Source: Cytobacillus oceanisediminis
GTDB taxonomy: Bacteria > Bacillota > Bacilli > Bacillales > Cytobacillaceae
DNA length: 64,000 nucleotides
Reading direction: 5' to 3'
Assembly (NCBI RefSeq): GCF_022811925.1
Contig: NZ_CP065511.1
Coordinates: forward strand, 1,419,501-1,483,500
Below are positions 38,076 through 45,905 of this stretch, one piece after another. The notes under the pieces were generated by a model that worked only from the letters and a program-made list of their open reading frames with translations, made no database searches and was not told where the DNA came from. The first letter of the stretch is position 1; the number at the start of each line of letters is the position of its first letter. The position numbers and the translations under genes are program-made.

Positions 38076-38165
38076 CTGTAATTTGTTACAAGCTTATGAA
38101 GAGACTACTCATCAATCCTCTTGTTGGTTCATAGATTATGGTAAGGACTAAAAGGGGGAGTGGCA

Positions 38166-39578
38166 ATGCGAGAAGAAGAAAATAAGTCATTGGAATATGC
38201 CATTCAGGAAATTACTGAAATTGCAAATGGGTTTGGCTTGGACTATTACCCGATGAGGTATGAAATCTGTCCTGCAGAAATCATTTATACATTCGGGGCT
38301 TATGGCATGCCGACCAGGTTTTCGCATTGGAGCTTTGGAAAACAGTTTCATAAGATGAAGCTGCATTATGATTTAGGATTATCAAAAATTTATGAGCTCG
38401 TAATCAATTCGGATCCTTGCTACGCGTTTCTGCTCGATTCCAATGCCCTTATTCAGAACAAATTAATTGTTGCTCATGTTTTAGCACACTGCGATTTCTT
38501 TAAAAATAATGTCCGTTTTCAAAACACAAAGAGGGACATGGTAGAGAGCATGGCTGCAACTGCCGAAAGAATCAGGCAATATGAAATTGAGTTTGGGAAG
38601 AAGGAAGTGGAAACTTTCCTTGATGCAGTGCTGGCAATTGAAGAACATATTGATCCGTCTATTATGAGGCCGAAGCTAGCCTGGAGTACGGAAGATGAAT
38701 ATGAAAGCAGCGGTGATACGGCAGCATCTAGCCCTTATGATGATTTATGGGGGTTGGATGAAAGGAACAAAAAGCATGAGCCAAAGAAGAAGAAAAAGAA
38801 ATTCCCTCCAAAACCCGAAAAGGATTTACTGTTATTTATTGAAAGCTACAGCAGGGAGCTCACCGACTGGCAGCGGGATATTTTAACTATGATGCGGGAA
38901 GAAATGCTCTATTTTTGGCCGCAGCTCGAAACAAAAATCATGAATGAGGGATGGGCTTCCTATTGGCATCAGCGTATTTTAAGGGAAATGGATTTGACAT
39001 CTGCAGAAGCGCTTGAATTTGCCAAATTGAATGCAGGAGTGGTTCAGCCGTCCAGAACCGGAATCAATCCATATTATCTGGGCCTGAAAATTTTCGAAGA
39101 TATTGAAGAGAGGTATAACAATCCGACGGAGGAAATGAAGAGGCGCGGTGTAGTGCCAGGTTCGGGCAGGGAGAAAATGTTTGAGGTCCGTGAGATCGAG
39201 TCAGATATATCTTTTTTAAGAAATTATTTAACAAAAGACCTTGTCATGAGAGAAGACATGTATCTATTCCAAAAACAGGGAAAGGATTATAAGATTGTTG
39301 ATAAACAGTGGGAGCATGTTCGTGATCAGCTTGTCAGCATGCGCGTAAATGGAGGTTTCCCGTATTTGACGGTTAATGACGGCGATTATATGAAGAATGG
39401 GGAGCTGTATCTAAAGCACTGGTTTGAAGGAGTGGAGCTTGATCTTAAATATCTTGAAAAAGTACTCCCATACGTATACCAGCTTTGGGGCAGAGGAGTC
39501 CACATGGAAACCATTGTTGAAGGCAAAAATATGCTTTTCACTTACGATGGGAAGAGCATTCATAGAAAATACTTATAA
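38166..39578 (+). CDS. spoVR: SpoVR-family protein
   Basis: A 470-residue cytoplasmic protein involved in spore cortex formation in B. subtilis (SpoVR, 468 residues). Diagnostic strings are [20 protein letters not shown] near the N-terminus, [12 protein letters not shown] (about residues 106-117, His and Cys that may bind metal), and [15 protein letters not shown] (about residues 261-275). A lysine-rich linker sits at about residues 200-220. ATG at 38166, 5 bases after AAGGGGGAG; GTG 38160 overlaps that site. Its presence marks a spore-former. Confidence 0.95.
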
Positions 39579-39586
39579 GAATGGAG

Positions 39587-39621
39587 GACGAACCACATCT
39601 GAAGTGGTTCGTCTTTTTTTG
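39587..39621 (+). terminator. Terminator of spoVR
   Basis: GACGAACCAC pairs perfectly with GTGGTTCGTC and is followed by seven T. Confidence 0.93.
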
Positions 39622-39708
39622 GTTGAGCTACAAACCGGTTTATTAAAAAATGGGCAGGATATAAACTAAATACTTTCTTCCTAAGGAGTATTGCAGTAAT
39701 ATTAACGT

Positions 39709-39724
39709 GTACAGGCGGGGGTAT
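39709..39724 (+). promoter_or_regulatory. Degenerate CstR-operator-like half site upstream of the HesB-like gene
   Basis: GTACAGGCGGGGGTAT keeps the right half (GGGGTAT) of the operator motif found repeatedly at 40156-41454, but the left half is poor. It may link the HesB-like gene to the CstR regulon; this is weak evidence. Confidence 0.25.
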
Positions 39725-39809
39725 TGGAATAGGTTATTTTATTTGATGACTTACCAGTTACTGATATTTAGCTTGAATCCATTTATAAACTAAGAAAGGA
39801 TGATAATTC

Positions 39810-40088
39810 TTGAAAATTACAGATTCAGCTCGGGACCTATTGAAGCAAGTGTTTCAAGAGAAAGATGCGGGCGGCATTAGAGTTTACTTCGCAGGCTTTG
39901 GCTGAGGAGGCCCACAAATTGGACTGGCTCTGGATGAGCCGGAAGCAGACGATTTAATCGAAACAATCAATGAAATCCAGGTTGCATTTGACCCGGAAAT
40001 CAAACCGCATACAGAAAGTATGATTCTGGACCATGACAAGGAAAATGAAAGACTAGTCTTGCTGGGCAACGAAAGCGAATGCTGCTAG
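39810..40088 (+). CDS. HesB/IscA-like protein with in-frame TGA: probable selenoprotein
   Basis: Frame of 93 codons starting at TTG 39810 (AAAGGA 9 bases upstream) and ending at TAG 40086-40088, interrupted only by TGA at 39903-39905 (codon 32). Reading TGA as selenocysteine gives a 92-residue HesB/IscA-type protein: RVYFAGFG-U-GGPQIGLALDEP, where relatives have cysteine, and a C-terminal Cys-Cys pair (91-92) that could complete a three-ligand metal or Fe-S site. The sequence after TGA is fully conserved in character, so the gene is not decayed. A SECIS-like hairpin follows the TGA at the expected distance. The alternative is a nonsense mutation or sequencing error; automated annotation would miss or truncate it. 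It neighbours the persulfide locus and has its own terminator. Confidence 0.72.
39924..39942 (+). promoter_or_regulatory. Putative bacterial SECIS element
   Basis: CTGGCTC (39924-39930) pairs with GAGCCGG (39936-39942), one G-U pair among seven, closing a 5-nt loop TGGAT with G at its second position (39932). That guanine is 26 nt after the TGA. Known bacterial SECIS elements have a short apical loop with G in one of its first two positions, 16-37 nt from the codon. Confidence 0.6.
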
Positions 40089-40097
40089 GCAAGTAAC

Positions 40098-40122
40098 AAA
40101 ACACCCGTTTGGGTGTTTTTTC
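40098..40122 (+). terminator. Terminator of the HesB-like gene
   Basis: AAAACACCC pairs with GGGTGTTTT across GTTT, followed by a T run. Confidence 0.85.
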
Positions 40123-40147
40123 TATTGAAAAAAATTTCAATCAGGTA

Positions 40148-40176
40148 TTGACTATATACCTTATAGGGTATATTAT
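40148..40176 (+). promoter_or_regulatory. cstR promoter with operator in its spacer
   Basis: TTGACT (40148-40153) and TATTAT (40171-40176), spacer 17 bp. The spacer holds ATACCTTATAGGGTAT (40156-40171), a 16-bp CstR/CsoR-type palindrome, so the repressor should control its own gene. Confidence 0.8.
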
Positions 40177-40300
40177 ATGAATTGTAATTGTATTAATAAT
40201 GCATATGAGATTACTTTCATGCTGTGCAAAAAGGGTTTTGAAATTGCAGCCATTCTCAATGCCTGGTTGTCATTCCGCAAAATAAATGGGGTGGGAAATA

Positions 40301-40561
40301 TTGGTATACGATGAAAGATCAAAAAACCGAATCAAAAGAGCTGAGGGACAGCTAAGGGGTATTTTAAAAATGATGGAAGATGAGAAGGATTGCAAATCTG
40401 TTATTACTCAACTAACTGCATCCCGTTCTGCGATTGATAAAGCAATCGCGGTTATTGTTAGTCAAAATCTTGAACAGTGTATTATAGAAAATGCTGAAAA
40501 AGGTACAGCAAATTCAAGCATTATTGAAGAGGCCGTCAACTTACTTGTTAAAAGCAGATAA
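40301..40561 (+). CDS. cstR: CstR-type persulfide-sensing repressor (CsoR/DUF156 family)
   Basis: An 86-residue, all-helical tetrameric repressor of the CsoR family. From TTG 40301 (GGGGTGGG 6 bases upstream) the two cysteines fall at positions 31 (DEKDCKS) and 60 (NLEQC), the same numbers as in Staphylococcus CstR. Position 56, the copper-ligand His in CsoR, is Asn, so this is a persulfide sensor rather than a copper sensor. In B. subtilis the positional equivalent is YrkD. Cross-linking of the cysteines by sulfane sulfur should release DNA and induce the downstream genes. An upstream ATG at 40286 would add five residues and shift this numbering. Confidence 0.9.
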   Translation: MVYDERSKNRIKRAEGQLRGILKMMEDEKDCKSVITQLTASRSAIDKAIAVIVSQNLEQCIIENAEKGTANSSIIEEAVNLLVKSR

Positions 40562-40568
40562 AAGACAG

Positions 40569-40613
40569 TTGACTTCCTCATTTTATTTAGTTATTATATA
40601 CCCTACAGGGTAT
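40569..40613 (+). promoter_or_regulatory. Promoter and CstR operator of the rhodanese pair
   Basis: TTGACT (40569-40574), TATTAT (40592-40597), spacer 17 bp, immediately followed by the perfect palindrome ATACCCTACAGGGTAT-like site at 40598-40613, which would block transcription start. Confidence 0.78.
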
Positions 40614-40639
40614 TAAGATCTATAATCGGAGGTAATCAA

Positions 40640-40999
40640 ATGACCATTGTAAATGGAGTTATTATTGCTCTTCTTATTATCCTTTTAGTTCGAAAATTGA
40701 TTCCAGTTAAAGGAGTCAGGCAGATGACACCTGCTCAGCTGCAAAACGAAATAAAGGACAAAAACAAGCAATGCATTGATGTTAGAACACCTGCAGAGTT
40801 TAAACGATTCCATGTTCCGGGATTTGTCAATATGCCTCTTCATCAGCTTACCCAGAAAATGAGCCAGCTTTCAAAGGATCAGGAAGTAGTTGTCATGTGC
40901 CAAAGTGGAATGAGAAGCAGCAAAGCGAGCAAAATCCTGAAGAAAGAAGGCTTTAAAAATATAACAAATATCAGAGGCGGACTGAGCGCCTGGAGATAA
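40640..40999 (+). CDS. Membrane-anchored rhodanese-domain protein
   Basis: A 119-residue protein with one N-terminal membrane segment (VNGVIIALLIILLVRKL) and a single rhodanese domain (about residues 27-119). The active-site loop is CQSGMRSS with Cys87; CIDVRTPAEF and GGLSAWR are the flanking family motifs. It should carry persulfide sulfur at the membrane. ATG after GGAGG. It is 15 bp upstream of a second rhodanese, so the two form an operon under the 40598 operator. Confidence 0.9.
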   Translation: MTIVNGVIIALLIILLVRKLIPVKGVRQMTPAQLQNEIKDKNKQCIDVRTPAEFKRFHVPGFVNMPLHQLTQKMSQLSKDQEVVVMCQSGMRSSKASKILKKEGFKNITNIRGGLSAWR

Positions 41000-41014
41000 G
41001 AGGGGATATTTCAT

Positions 41015-41311
41015 ATGAAAACTATGACTGCAAAGGATGTAGAGCAGAAGTTAGCTGCCGGGAAACCTTTGAATTTAATCGATGTGCGTGAGGTGGATGA
41101 GGTTAAGGAAGGGAAGATTCCATCAGCCATTCATATTCCGCTTGGATTAATTGAATTCCGCATGCATGAACTGGATAAAAATAAAGAATATGTAATGGTT
41201 TGCAGATCAGGCAGCCGCAGTGGACTAGCTGCCCGCTTTCTAGAAAGCCAGGGTTTTAGCGTGATCAATATGAGCGGCGGTATGATGAACTGGGAAGGCC
41301 CCATAGAATAA
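41015..41311 (+). CDS. Single-domain rhodanese sulfurtransferase
   Basis: A 98-residue cytoplasmic rhodanese. DVREVDEVKEGKIPSAIHIP is the N-terminal motif; the active loop is CRSGSRSG (Cys63), and GGMMNWEG closes the domain. It transfers sulfane sulfur, probably among the TusA, DsrE and dioxygenase proteins of this locus. ATG preceded by GAGGGG. The start context and spacing suggest co-transcription with the preceding rhodanese. Confidence 0.92.
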   Translation: MKTMTAKDVEQKLAAGKPLNLIDVREVDEVKEGKIPSAIHIPLGLIEFRMHELDKNKEYVMVCRSGSRSGLAARFLESQGFSVINMSGGMMNWEGPIE

Positions 41312-41339
41312 AACTTGATGTTCGAAAAGAAAAGGGGTA

Positions 41340-41384
41340 TTGACAGAAAGTAAAACATACTGTAATGTATACCCCGTGAGGTAT
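41340..41384 (+). promoter_or_regulatory. Promoter and CstR operator upstream of the DsrE-led operon (site 3)
   Basis: TTGACA (41340-41345) and TAATGT (41363-41368), 17 bp apart, then ATACCCCGTGAGGTAT at 41369-41384, a third copy of the palindrome at the transcription start. Confidence 0.72.
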
Positions 41385-41438
41385 TAAAACCTGATTACTA
41401 ATAACACAATAGAAACTTTATTTTTTTTGATTATATGA

Positions 41439-41454
41439 ATACCCATTGGGGTAA
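41439..41454 (+). promoter_or_regulatory. CstR operator-like site 4
   Basis: ATACCCATTGGGGTAA differs from the palindrome at one end position and lies 15 bp before the DsrE gene, 70 bp after site 3, so the operon may have tandem operators. Confidence 0.6.
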
Positions 41455-41468
41455 AAGGAGGAAAAGGA

Positions 41469-41945
41469 ATGGAAAAGAAGAAGACAACAATTGTTCTATT
41501 CAGCGGAGATTATGACAAGGTGATGGCAGCTTATATCATTGCGAATGGAGCAGCTGCTTATGACCATGAGGTAACGATCTTTCACACTTTTTGGGGACTG
41601 AATGCTCTAAGGAAAGATGAGCCTATCCAAGTGAAAAAATCATTTATGGAAAAAATGTTTGGAAAAATGATGCCTAGAGGTCCTGAAAAAATGGGTCTTT
41701 CAAAAATGAATATGGCTGGCATGGGTCCTAAAATGATTAAAGATATTATGAAAAAGCACAACACGATGCCAGTAAAAGATTTGATTGAAATGGCAAAAGA
41801 ACAGGATATTAAGCTGGTAGCCTGTCAGATGACAGTTGATCTTCTAGGCTTCAAACCAGATGAAATTATTGATGGCGTTGAATATGCTGGTGTAGCAGCG
41901 TACCTGGCAGATGCAGAAGATGGAAATGTAAACTTATTCATCTAA
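41469..41945 (+). CDS. DsrE/DsrF-like family protein (YrkE type)
   Basis: A 158-residue protein of the DsrE/DrsE_2 superfamily, proposed sulfur carriers. N-terminal strand KTTIVLFSGDYDKVMAAYIIANGAAA, a methionine- and lysine-rich insertion (about residues 60-100) and a conserved cysteine in LVACQMTVDLLG (Cys119). Corresponds by position to YrkE in B. subtilis. ATG after AGGAGG. Probably accepts persulfide from rhodanese or TusA partners encoded next to it. Confidence 0.87.
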   Translation: MEKKKTTIVLFSGDYDKVMAAYIIANGAAAYDHEVTIFHTFWGLNALRKDEPIQVKKSFMEKMFGKMMPRGPEKMGLSKMNMAGMGPKMIKDIMKKHNTMPVKDLIEMAKEQDIKLVACQMTVDLLGFKPDEIIDGVEYAGVAAYLADAEDGNVNLFI

Positions 41946-41975
41946 ACCAAATTTTTAAAATAGGGGGATTTCTAA

Positions 41976-42554
41976 ATGAAAACATTAAAAGCAAACTTTA
42001 CGGTAGATGCAAAAGGCCTTGCTTGCCCAATGCCAATTGTAAGAACAAAAAAAGCAATTAATAATTTAAACGCTGGTGAAGTACTTGAGGTCCTTGCAAC
42101 TGATAAAGGTTCAAAGGCAGATATTCAGGCCTGGTCAAAAAGTTCAGGACATCAATATCTTGGGACAATTGAAGAAGGGGATGTGCTAAAGCACTATATC
42201 CGCAAAGCAAGTGAAAATGAAGAGCGCGAAGCAGTAAATTTTGAGATTATTGCTTCTAACGAAGATCTGCAAAGAGAACTTGAATCAAATACAGAGATTG
42301 TCGTTCTTGATGTAAGGGAACCGGCAGAATATGCATTTGGACATATTCCAAACGCTATTTCCATTCCTTTTGGCGAACTTGAAGAACGAATGGGCGAGCT
42401 GAATAAAGATAAAAAGATTTATGTAGTATGCCGTACAGGCAGCCGCAGTGATATGGCTTCACAGGCATTAACCGAAAAAGGCTTCTCCCACATAATTAAT
42501 GTAGTGCCGGGAATGTCTGATTGGAATGGACCGACAGAAACTAAAGTGAACTAA
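41976..42554 (+). CDS. TusA-rhodanese fusion sulfurtransferase (YrkF type)
   Basis: A 192-residue two-domain sulfur carrier. The N-terminal TusA domain (about residues 5-77) has the Cys-Pro-x-Pro motif KGLACPMPI with Cys17; the C-terminal rhodanese domain (about residues 87-190) has DVREPAEYAFGHIPNAISIP and the active loop CRTGSRSD with Cys152. The fusion implies direct relay of persulfide between the two cysteines. It corresponds to YrkF. Separated from the DsrE gene by 30 bp and from the dioxygenase by 40 bp. Confidence 0.92.
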   Translation: MKTLKANFTVDAKGLACPMPIVRTKKAINNLNAGEVLEVLATDKGSKADIQAWSKSSGHQYLGTIEEGDVLKHYIRKASENEEREAVNFEIIASNEDLQRELESNTEIVVLDVREPAEYAFGHIPNAISIPFGELEERMGELNKDKKIYVVCRTGSRSDMASQALTEKGFSHIINVVPGMSDWNGPTETKVN

Positions 42555-42572
42555 AAAATTTTTTTAAAAAAT

Positions 42573-42588
42573 ATACATTAGGGGGTAT
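42573..42588 (+). promoter_or_regulatory. Weak CstR-like site 5 before the dioxygenase gene
   Basis: ATACATTAGGGGGTAT keeps outer bases of the palindrome, but its GGGGG also serves as the ribosome binding site of the next gene, so operator function is doubtful. Confidence 0.3.
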
Positions 42589-42594
42589 GAAACG

Positions 42595-43716
42595 ATGAAA
42601 GCAATGACTGCTAAAGAAGTAACAAAAAAAGTTATTCAAAATGAAGAGCTATTTATACTGGATGTGCGCAATGAAAGTGACTTTAATGATTGGAAGATTG
42701 AAGGAAAAAACTTTGAATACATGAATGTTCCCTACTTCGATCTTCTTGATGGAGTAGAGTCAATTCTGGATAAAATTCCAGCTGATAAAGAACTTTTAAT
42801 CGTTTGTGCAAAAGAAGGATCTTCTGTCATGATTGCAGAAATGCTTGAGGAAGCTGGACGAGAGGCATCTTACCTGAAGGGCGGAATGAAAGCATGGAGC
42901 GAACACCTTGAGCCTGTTAAAGTAGGAGACTTGAAGCACGGGGGCGAAATGTACCAATTTGTCCGCATTGGTAAAGGGTGTCTATCATATATGGTTATTT
43001 CTAATGGGGAAGCGGCGATAGTCGATGCAACAAGAATGACTGAGGTATTCACTGACTTTGCTGCTGAAAAGAATGCTGTAATCAAGCATGTTTTTGATAC
43101 ACACCTCCATGCTGACCATATCTCAGGGGGAAGAAAAATTGCTGAAAAAACTGGTGCTTCATACTGGCTTCCTCCTAAGGATGCTGAAGAAGTAACATTT
43201 GATTACAAAAGTCTTGATGATGGAAACGAAGTAATGATTGGTTCTACTAAGATCAGTATTCAAGCTATTTATTCACCAGGCCATACAATTGGATCAACAT
43301 CATTTGTGGTAGATGATCAATACCTTCTATCAGGCGATATTCTATTCATCGATTCAATTGGCCGACCGGACCTTGCAGGAAAAGCCGGTGACTGGGCTGG
43401 CGATTTAAGGGAGACACTTTATAAGCGTTATAAAGAGCTATCAAGTGAATTAGTTGTTATGCCTGCACACTTCATGATCATTGATGAGTTAAATGAAGAT
43501 GGCAGTGTTTCTGAGAAACTTGGCACATTATTTGCTGAGAATCATGGATTAAATATTGATGACGAAGGAGAATTCAGAAAATTAGTTTCTGAGAACCTTC
43601 CTCCTCAGCCAAATGCTTATCAGGAAATCCGTGAAACAAATATGGGTAAAATCAGCCCGGATGAAGAAAAACAGAGAGAGATGGAAATCGGTCCTAACCG
43701 CTGTGCTGTAAGATAA
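42595..43716 (+). CDS. Rhodanese-persulfide dioxygenase fusion (YrkH/CstB-like)
   Basis: A 373-residue fusion that should oxidise persulfide to sulfite using the non-haem iron metallo-beta-lactamase domain. An N-terminal rhodanese domain (about residues 1-108) has VCAKEGSS with Cys71. The MBL domain (about residues 115-350) has DTHLHADH (His170, His172, Asp174, His175), SPGHTIGS (His230), SGDILF (Asp248) and MPAHF (His292), the persulfide dioxygenase set. Domain order is rhodanese first, unlike Staphylococcus CstB (MBL-rhodanese-rhodanese). The sulfite produced would be exported by the TauE protein downstream. Confidence 0.92.
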
Positions 43717-43774
43717 TTACCTGAATTCAAAAAACTTTAGCTTAGATAATTTAAAAAATTGGAGGAATGAAAAC

Positions 43775-44002
43775 ATGAACGCAGCAAAAGTACTGGATGC
43801 AAAAGGCTTAGCTTGTCCAATGCCAATCGTAAAAACAAAGAAAGCAATTGGGGAAATCGAATCAGGCCAGGTGCTTGAAGTTCATACAACCGACAAAGGC
43901 GCAGTTAAAGACTTGGCTGCCTGGACAGAGTCAACAGGACATGAGCTTTTAAAACATGAGGATGACAACGGAATTTTAAAGTTCTGGATAAAAAAAGGCT
44001 AA
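43775..44002 (+). CDS. TusA-family sulfur carrier (YrkI type)
   Basis: A 75-residue TusA/SirA-like sulfur carrier with LDAKGLACPMPIVKTKKAI near the N-terminus (Cys14) and the ETHTTDKGAVKDL-type beta-alpha region. Highly similar in its first 60 residues to the TusA half of the fusion at 41976, suggesting duplication. ATG after GGAGG. It lies between the dioxygenase and the exporter in a row that matches yrkI in B. subtilis. Confidence 0.92.
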   Translation: MNAAKVLDAKGLACPMPIVKTKKAIGEIESGQVLEVHTTDKGAVKDLAAWTESTGHELLKHEDDNGILKFWIKKG

Positions 44003-44064
44003 TCTATTGAAAGGTAAAAGGGGGTTTCTACTCCCTTTTATCGCTAAAAGGAGGAGATAGCCAC

Positions 44065-44841
44065 ATGGATTTAACCTTTTTAATCGTTATATTTTTAATT
44101 GGTTTTATCGGGTCTTACATTTCCGGCATGGTAGGAATTGGCGGCTCAATCATTAAATACCCTATGCTTTTATACATTCCGCCATTATTTGGATTAGCTG
44201 CTTTTTCTGCTCACGAAGTATCCGGAATCAGTGCAGTACAGGTGTTTTTTGCAACAATCGGGGGCGTCTGGGCTTACAGAAAAGGTGGATACCTGAATAA
44301 AACACTAATTATTTATATGGGTTCAGCAATACTAATCGGAAGTTTAATCGGAAGCTATGGTTCAAGGTTTATGACTGAGGGCGGCATCAATCTTGTATAT
44401 GGTGTATTAGCTTTAATTGCCGCAGTCATGATGTTCGTGCCGAAAAAAGGCTTGGATGATATACCTTTGGATCAAGTAAAGTTCAATAAATGGCTTGCAG
44501 CCTTTTTTGCTTTGATTGTCGGCATCGGAGCTGGAATCGTAGGTGCAGCAGGTGCATTTTTACTGGTTCCTATTATGCTGGTTGTATTGAAGATCCCTAC
44601 AAGGATGACGATTGCGACATCACTGGCCATCACGTTTATTTCATCGATTGGATCTACAGCTGGCAAATTGGCAACCGGCCAGGTGGACTATATTCCTGCT
44701 GCCATAATGATAATTGCCAGCTTAATTGCTTCTCCATTAGGAGCTGCTGCAGGAAAAAGAGTAAATACAAAAATCCTCCAAGTCATTTTGGCTGTTTTAA
44801 TTCTGGCAACATCAATCAAAATCTGGATGGATATTTTATAA
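44065..44841 (+). CDS. TauE/SafE-family sulfite exporter (YrkJ type)
   Basis: A 258-residue membrane protein with about eight segments. Family strings: [21 protein letters not shown] (about residues 12-32) and, in the second repeat, [20 protein letters not shown] (about residues 152-171). TauE proteins export sulfite or sulfoacetate; here it fits as exit route for sulfite formed by the persulfide dioxygenase. ATG after AGGAGG. Last gene of the cluster, followed by a terminator at 44852. Confidence 0.92.
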
Positions 44842-45011: not shown

Positions 45012-45905
45012 TTAGTGGATGGCTTTCTTTTTAAATCTGCCGCCTCTCACTTCAGCAATATCAGCAACTGCTAAAAAAGCACTCGGATCTATTTCTTCGA
45101 CAATGGATTTTAATTTTGCTTCTTCAAGTCTGGTTATGACACAAAAAATTACTTTTTTGTCATCCCCAGTGTATGCGCCTTCCCCATTTAAGTAGGTAAC
45201 GCCTCGTCCCAGCCGGGCCATAATCGCTTCGCCGATTACCTTATGCTGGTCGCTGATGATCCAGGCGGATTTGGATTCATCCAGTCCGCTGATGACAACA
45301 TCAATTGTCTTGAAAGCAATGAAATATGCAAGGATTGAGTACATGGCCCGGTTCCAGCCGAAAACAAAGCCTGCAGTAGCAAAAATGAAGATATTGAAAA
45401 ACATAATGATTTCCCCGACAGAGAACGGGAGTTTTTTATTTACCAGAATGGCCAGTATCTCAGTTCCATCTAAAGATCCCCCATATCTGATTACCATTCC
45501 GACCCCAACGCCAAGAACAATGCCGCCAAATACTGTTGCTAACAGCAAGTCCTCTGTAAATACGGGAACATCATGCAAGAGGAGGGTGGTGGCTGATAAT
45601 ACCGCAATGCCCAGCAATGTAGACAATGCAAAGGTTTTCCCTATCTGTTTATACCCTATGTAAAAAAATGGAATATTTAAGGTGAAAATAAACCAGCCGA
45701 GTTTCCAGCCGGACAAGTGAGAGAGGATAATGGAGATTCCTACTATTCCGCCATCCAGAATTTTATTGGGCACTAGGAATTCTTCGATTCCGACACCCAT
45801 AAGTATGGCTCCAAGTATGATGAAGAAAATCCTTTTTGCAAGCTTGCCTTTAGTCAATCCTTTATGTACATTTGCTTCAACAGCAGTTTCGAGTGAAACG
45901 TTCAT
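45012..45905 (-). CDS. YitT-family membrane protein, full length
   Basis: A 297-residue protein with about six membrane segments (FLVPNKILDGGIVGIS, about residues 44-59; IRYGGSLDGTEILAIL, about residues 143-158) and the soluble C-terminal DUF2179 domain (about residues 215-290, GVTYLNGEGAYTGDDKKVIFCV). B. subtilis has several such proteins (YitT, YqfU, YvjA, YpjC and others) of unknown role, and I cannot say which is the orthologue. It is transcribed leftwards as a single gene. Confidence 0.88.
   Translation of the reverse strand: MNVSLETAVEANVHKGLTKGKLAKRIFFIILGAILMGVGIEEFLVPNKILDGGIVGISIILSHLSGWKLGWFIFTLNIPFFYIGYKQIGKTFALSTLLGIAVLSATTLLLHDVPVFTEDLLLATVFGGIVLGVGVGMVIRYGGSLDGTEILAILVNKKLPFSVGEIIMFFNIFIFATAGFVFGWNRAMYSILAYFIAFKTIDVVISGLDESKSAWIISDQHKVIGEAIMARLGRGVTYLNGEGAYTGDDKKVIFCVITRLEEAKLKSIVEEIDPSAFLAVADIAEVRGGRFKKKAIH

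Follow-up and report, generated by a model that had tools for sequence, protein, structure and literature searches.

Between a SpoVR family gene and a persulfide-type cluster in the genome of Cytobacillus oceanisediminis (5.58 Mb, two contigs) stands a short frame of HesB/IscA type that is interrupted by a TGA codon, which raises the question of whether this codon is a stop or is read as selenocysteine (Sec), and what a selenium-containing protein of this type would do at such a place. Features of the window, which here means the whole analyzed stretch of 64,000 nucleotides, are collected in Table 1. Several independent sequence tests support translation of the gene through UGA as Sec, and the gene, cut by gene callers at the apparent stop, almost certainly encodes a real selenium-containing IscA/HesB-type protein.

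Table 1. Positions of the features of the window that are discussed in the text
Feature	Position	Strand	Description and basis
Predicted HesB/IscA-like selenoprotein gene	39810..40088	+	TTG start, 92 codons plus stop, motif GFG-U-GGP, C-terminal Cys91-Cys92
In-frame TGA, predicted to be read as Sec, codon 32	39903..39905	+	Aligned with the Cys of the IscA-type GC motif; genome has Sec machinery
Ribosome-binding-like stretch AAGAAAGG	39792..39799	+	10 nt before the TTG; direct reading
Predicted bacterial SECIS hairpin	39924..39942	+	7-bp stem, loop UGGAU, G at loop position 2; fold, synonymous freeze, compensatory pairs
SpoVR family gene, left border of slot	38160..39578	+	Family name match of 244.7 bits, below the cut-off of 679
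Persulfide-type cluster	40286..44841	+	ORFs; family matches for the regulator and MBL-rhodanese, all below model cut-offs
Presumed YitT-like gene, right border of slot	45012..45905	-	ORF position; slot shared in relatives
Terminator-like hairpin after HesB gene	40098..40119	+	Terminator scan
Possible sigma-B-type promoter	39700..39724	+	TATTAA, 13 nt, GGGTAT; read by eye

A sequence-only reading of the locus had drawn the frame from the TTG at 39810 through a TGA at codon 32 to a tail ending in a Cys-Cys pair, and all of these coordinates hold, with the stop TAG at 40086-40088 and a C-terminus that reads ...ESECC. The start position is common to the aligned orthologs, in which the start codon is ATG, TTG or GTG. 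Alignment with Cys-containing homologs bore out the suggestion that the TGA takes the place of the conserved cysteine of the GFG-C-GGP motif, as the in-frame UGA matches a conserved Cys column, and the UxGP motif of HesB-like selenoproteins is present as UGGP. The terminator proposed for the gene itself was also found, as a terminator-like hairpin.

The selA, selB, selC and selD genes, named earlier as a check on the proposal, are all present in the genome: SelA (475 bits), SelB (377 bits, cut-off 242), SelD (422 bits), whose own gene has an in-frame TGA, and tRNASec with anticodon tca (60.3 bits, over the gathering score). Among selD, HesB and formate dehydrogenase, the genes looked at as possible Sec clients, selD and two HesB copies are the Sec genes seen in this genome, and none of the 10 formate dehydrogenase matches listed, three of them over cut-off, carries a TGA. 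Sec use had been assumed to be rare in Bacillaceae, which does not fit the panel of 151 genomes (this one and 150 relatives), in 112 of which SelB is over cut-off. A HesB protein match occurs in 96 of the 151. All 73 genomes in which a TGA-bearing match scores 45 bits or more have SelB over cut-off (73/73), versus 0/39 genomes without SelB over cut-off that carry such a match; the count leaves out G087 and G119, with weak TGA matches below 30 bits, and a G081 fragment. Cys forms of HesB were found in 10 of these 39 genomes. The exception is G087, which has no SelB over cut-off and carries a weak TGA copy (24.5 bits) of a second subfamily, the surroundings of which match a G011 contig without any difference for more than 10 kb, as would be expected after a recent transfer.

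The hairpin suggested as SECIS element (7 bp, a 5-nt loop with G at position 2, a start 18 nt past the TGA and a spacing of 26 nt from TGA to loop G at 39932) could be confirmed at every coordinate, the stem CUGGCUC/GAGCCGG being formed by 39924-39930 and 39936-39942 and the loop by 39931-39935. The stretch 39915-39950 folds with -12.2 kcal/mol (z -3.4, with 1 of 200 shuffles equally good); three longer stretches around the hairpin gave z values of only -0.9 to -1.7, so thermodynamics by itself is no proof of a SECIS element. A scan of 39500-40400 against Rfam returned no family over its gathering score. In 55 unique TGA genes, codons +7 to +11 downstream of the TGA read CTG (52/53), GCT (54/54), CTG (55/55), GAT (54/54) and GAG (53/53) when only rows that carry the commonest amino acid are counted, and the usage of these codons elsewhere in the same genes is 0.18, 0.23, 0.18, 0.60 and 0.20, respectively. 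Synonymous sites in the hairpin are near-frozen, which indicates that the hairpin is under selection as RNA. A stem qualified if it had 5 or more pairs and a G as first or second nucleotide of the loop, within the allowed distance range (16-37 nt, the value given in the sequence-only reading); such a stem is present in 91 of 96 unique TGA sequences versus 5 of 16 unique Cys sequences, the other 11 having no qualifying hairpin. Stems of at least 7 pairs occur in 78/96 versus 1/16, and the mean folding energies are -11.3 (TGA) versus -4.2 kcal/mol (Cys). Among the 96 TGA sequences, pair 21-39 is C-G in 75, T-A in 6 and G-C in 6, which represents compensatory changes, and at pair 26-34 T-A predominates (91), with C-G in 2; a lone T-A at pair 27-33 belongs to a shifted register and is no compensation. 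Pairs 22-38 and 24-36 are non-standard in 12/96 and 8/96, respectively, which counts against the hairpin.

The TGA at codon 32 is kept in all 18 nearest orthologs (L024-L041). For codons 33-92, dN/dS was 0.06-0.19 against seven near orthologs, consistent with the earlier impression that the half downstream of the TGA shows no decay; among four more distant orthologs, the values were 0.10-0.14 in three, with dS close to saturation, and not computable in the fourth. It could be argued that the TGA is a true stop in a decaying HesB pseudogene, or a sequencing error, as individual copies do break (a TAA in G067, two frameshifted records), but 73 genomes keep the TGA together with a constrained hairpin and a constrained downstream half, and strong TGA copies occur only alongside SelB. 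The co-occurrence with SelB, the codon freeze and the dN/dS values speak strongly against both versions, which are extremely improbable. The reading as a HesB-like selenoprotein is thus supported by the presence of the Sec genes and by the retention of the TGA in close relatives; unrelated stops in close relatives, which had been named as a possible argument against it, amount to the isolated TAA of G067.

Several other irregular copies were observed. In G067 (L047/L068), the hairpin and the remaining gene are intact around the TAA, and G044, of the same genus, has TGA at that codon. The two frameshifted records of the window-type gene are L042 (G034) and L061 (Cytobacillus firmus NBRC 15306). 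At L195 (G053) and L202 (G084), two same-strand TGA-HesB genes stand about 2 kb apart.

As far as the accessible text of these sources goes, HesB-like selenoproteins have been in print since 2005-2006 (PMC1242214, PMC1794560; also PMC9312934), form a family with a UxGP motif (PMC13188914), and numbered 90 proteins from 86 organisms in one count (PMC5029168). The window protein resembles the HesB-like selenoproteins of TIGR01911 in being IscA-type, with Sec in UxGP and a single in-frame UGA, and differs from them in a shorter tail ending in CC and in scores below the cut-offs of TIGR01911 (44.9 versus 66.35 bits, with C put for U) and NF038090 (IscA_HesB_Se; 43.1 versus 85 bits). When the search read through stops, none of 398 genomes of the phylum reached the TIGR01911 cut-off, so this cut-off is strict for the phylum. 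PF01521 is also missed (24.1 bits, gathering score 26.3). The predicted structure has the IscA fold, and tail residues 89-92 are modeled at pLDDT below 50, so that a three-ligand geometry is unsupported by the model. Identity to E. coli IscA (1S98, 1R94) is 22%, the window protein having Sec for Cys and a tail CC; the tail motif of IscA is CxC. A HesB-like selenoprotein of Methanococcus maripaludis, likened to the window protein by description, is archaeal, and was found via mutagenesis and 75Se labeling according to the part of PMC11097638 available.

Many of the genomic neighborhoods point to arsenic. Neighbor clustering, together with scans of one representative per neighbor cluster that confirmed ArsA, ArsB, ArsC, ArsD, ArsR and Acr3, placed TGA- or Cys-HesB near the end of arsenic operons, typically in the order arsR-arsB/acr3-arsC(-arsD-arsA)-(phosphatase)-hesB. 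A locus was called ars-linked if its strand carried, within 6 kb, at least two of ArsA, ArsB, ArsC, ArsD and Acr3, L099 being added by hand on ArsC alone. The count covers 93 TGA loci whose flanks were long; it leaves out 14 loci of the window clade with flanks of 1.5 kb and includes the broken G081 copy, L225. Of the 93, 43 had ars genes, 2 had genes of both the ars and the persulfide type, 5 had persulfide genes alone, and the remaining 43 had neither, so arsenic is not the sole context. The 45/93 ars-linked loci belong to 13 genera (24/29 in the genus of this genome, 21/64 outside it), and ars genes also stand beside 14/17 Cys loci, where HesB in most cases comes after ArsA or the phosphatase. 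Chance adjacency within 6 kb was estimated at about 1% from the ArsC-type matches per genome (1-6, weak ones included, with one over cut-off in 144/151 genomes). The second TGA copy of the same genome (C1:3583967-3584239) sits in arsR-arsB-arsC-HesB, and two plasmid ars operons also contain HesB, as a TGA gene without a listed feature in Cytobacillus and as a Cys gene called 'adhesin' in Priestia. Of the distinct TGA proteins, 42/43 of those linked to ars end in CC versus 21/42 in other contexts (p 2e-7, uncorrected for kinship), and the contrast is weak when genera with CC throughout are counted (12/13 versus 11/21); L225, L105 and L106 are left out of the tail count. It is well supported that the window-type HesB is a member of a subfamily whose genes often close arsenic operons.

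Cys-type counterparts in ars operons have been described, namely the HesB-like orf7 of ars1 in Bacillus sp. CDB3 and hesB of an Exiguobacterium ars operon (in the portions of PMC4562236 and PMC8779447 at hand), which are likened here by operon membership and description, not by sequence. The Cys loci of the present set have Cys, often as CCGP, versus UGGP/UGQP in the TGA loci. A link to ars across HesB selenoproteins as a whole is unsupported: unlike the window-type subfamily, HesB loci of other classes of the phylum had no ArsA, ArsB, ArsC, ArsD or Acr3 neighbor in any of 20 cases (tblastn at 1e-5 with ars proteins of the relatives). These 20 were chosen among the better-scoring places of the phylum search; one had an ArsR-family match only, another did not yield the HesB frame, and three were shortened by contig ends.

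No same-strand ars gene adjoins HesB in the window, and the history of the slot between SpoVR and YitT offers an explanation. In two relatives of the same genus, G012 and G009, this slot holds arsR-arsB-arsC-arsD-arsA-HesB(TGA) with the persulfide cluster behind it; in a third such relative, G002, arsA fragments, HesB(TGA) and persulfide genes; in G004, HesB(TGA) without the persulfide cluster; and in the window, HesB and the persulfide cluster with no ars genes. The order SpoVR, HesB, persulfide cluster is common to most of the nearest orthologs, ArsA lies upstream of HesB in L038, L039 and L041, and L040 has no persulfide gene near HesB. In the tree, the rows of the slot fall together in one starred clade of 17, the inner order of which is weak, so that the direction of change rests mainly on the arsA fragments of G002. 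It is well supported that an ars operon once lay between SpoVR and the persulfide cluster and eroded until its last gene, the HesB of the window, was left; the persulfide neighborhood of this gene looks inherited. Taken jointly, a Sec-translated protein of IscA fold and its origin in an ars-operon subfamily, as the survivor of an eroded operon, are very probable on these genomic comparisons. The placement next to a persulfide regulon had been singled out as notable; this stands in so far as some TGA-HesB genes elsewhere lie in or beside persulfide operons, but the adjacency in the window looks like a remnant of ars erosion.

The signals around the gene were also compared. Another terminator-like hairpin stands between SpoVR and HesB. 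The possible promoter, which we liken to the sigma-B consensus, has its GGGTAT block in 10 of 13 aligned orthologs (absent from L038, L040 and L041), and a sigma-70 promoter scan gave nothing at 39700-39724. TGA-HesB genes have other neighborhoods as well: in genus g20 (L186, L194, L215), the gene immediately precedes an ArsR-family regulator and a P-type ATPase, a pair that we take to resemble CadC-CadA, and in g4, g16 and one g18 genome it faces what is presumably a tungstate-type ABC transporter on the opposite strand. Thiophilic stress may be the common thread of these contexts.

As a mechanism, the UGA would be decoded by the SECIS hairpin with SelA, SelB, SelC and SelD, yielding a 92-residue protein of IscA fold in which Sec32 occupies the first ligand position and Cys91-Cys92 forms the tail. 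Together, the selenolate and this Cys pair might then bind thiophilic toxic species, most likely As(III), and the protein could serve as an As(III) sink, as a chaperone for ArsB/ArsA, or to protect Fe-S sites. A ligand set of one selenolate with two thiolates would match As(III) in its three-coordinate form, and binding of As(III) or a similar thiophile through Sec32 and Cys91-Cys92 is a plausible but tentative proposal. Still more tentative is its extended form, in which the Sec-HesB encoded last in the ars operons of these Bacillaceae captures As(III) and related thiophiles via Se32 and the tail cysteines, arsenic tolerance is partly selenium-dependent, and the gene survives loss of the operon.

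The IscA fold and the ligand position would also suit a selenium-bearing A-type Fe-S carrier, which would repair or deliver clusters after damage from arsenite, cadmium or sulfane stress but bind no toxicant, as would contexts spanning arsenic, persulfide and a presumed CadC/CadA-like cluster; however, the tail is CC and not the CxC of IscA, and such a carrier seems rather unlikely. The persulfide genes suggest a different role, in which the selenolate would take S0 from a neighboring rhodanese/TusA/DsrE relay. In the window, we take the cluster to comprise a CsoR-family regulator, rhodaneses, DsrE-like, TusA-rhodanese, MBL-rhodanese (CstB-like), TusA and TauE, most of these names being presumptive. 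TGA-HesB follows directly after TauE in G077 and G037 and lies near persulfide genes in G065, and the second TGA-HesB subfamily, which has no tail cysteines, is found within a long persulfide operon in each of two genera (L105, G087 C2; L106, G011 C2). CsoR-type palindromes run through the persulfide cluster of the window (40156, 40598, 41369, 41439, 42573), with 28 matches in the whole window versus 10 expected (at most 2 mismatches, both strands), but upstream of HesB the one operator match, at 39709, has 2 mismatches and occurs on one strand only. As HesB, moreover, has its own terminator-like hairpin and its adjacency in the window lineage is explained by the eroded ars operon, sulfane-sulfur handling appears improbable.

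Both HesB-like selenoproteins and the presence of the Cys form in ars operons are already known, and the joining of the two was not found in the accessible literature. The function of HesB-like selenoproteins is called unclear or uncharacterized in the available parts of PMC11097638 and PMC13188914, and no link of Sec-HesB to arsenic or persulfide was found in the openly available text, most subscription papers lying outside this scope, nor any Sec-HesB link in the corresponding parts of PMC4531530, PMC6426599 and PMC5481582. Such genes are easily missed by annotation, as had been anticipated: five Cytobacillus plasmid matches, one of which was checked and has the TGA, are without a feature in the gene table of PLSDB, which is itself incomplete. 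A subfamily that scores below the family cut-offs, and whose commonest recognizable context is the ars operon, offers a lead on the role of HesB selenoproteins, and makes the question of this role a simple one of arsenite tolerance and As(III) binding, Sec versus Cys. If the arsenic proposal is true, it would provide a physiological role for a group of HesB-like selenoproteins.
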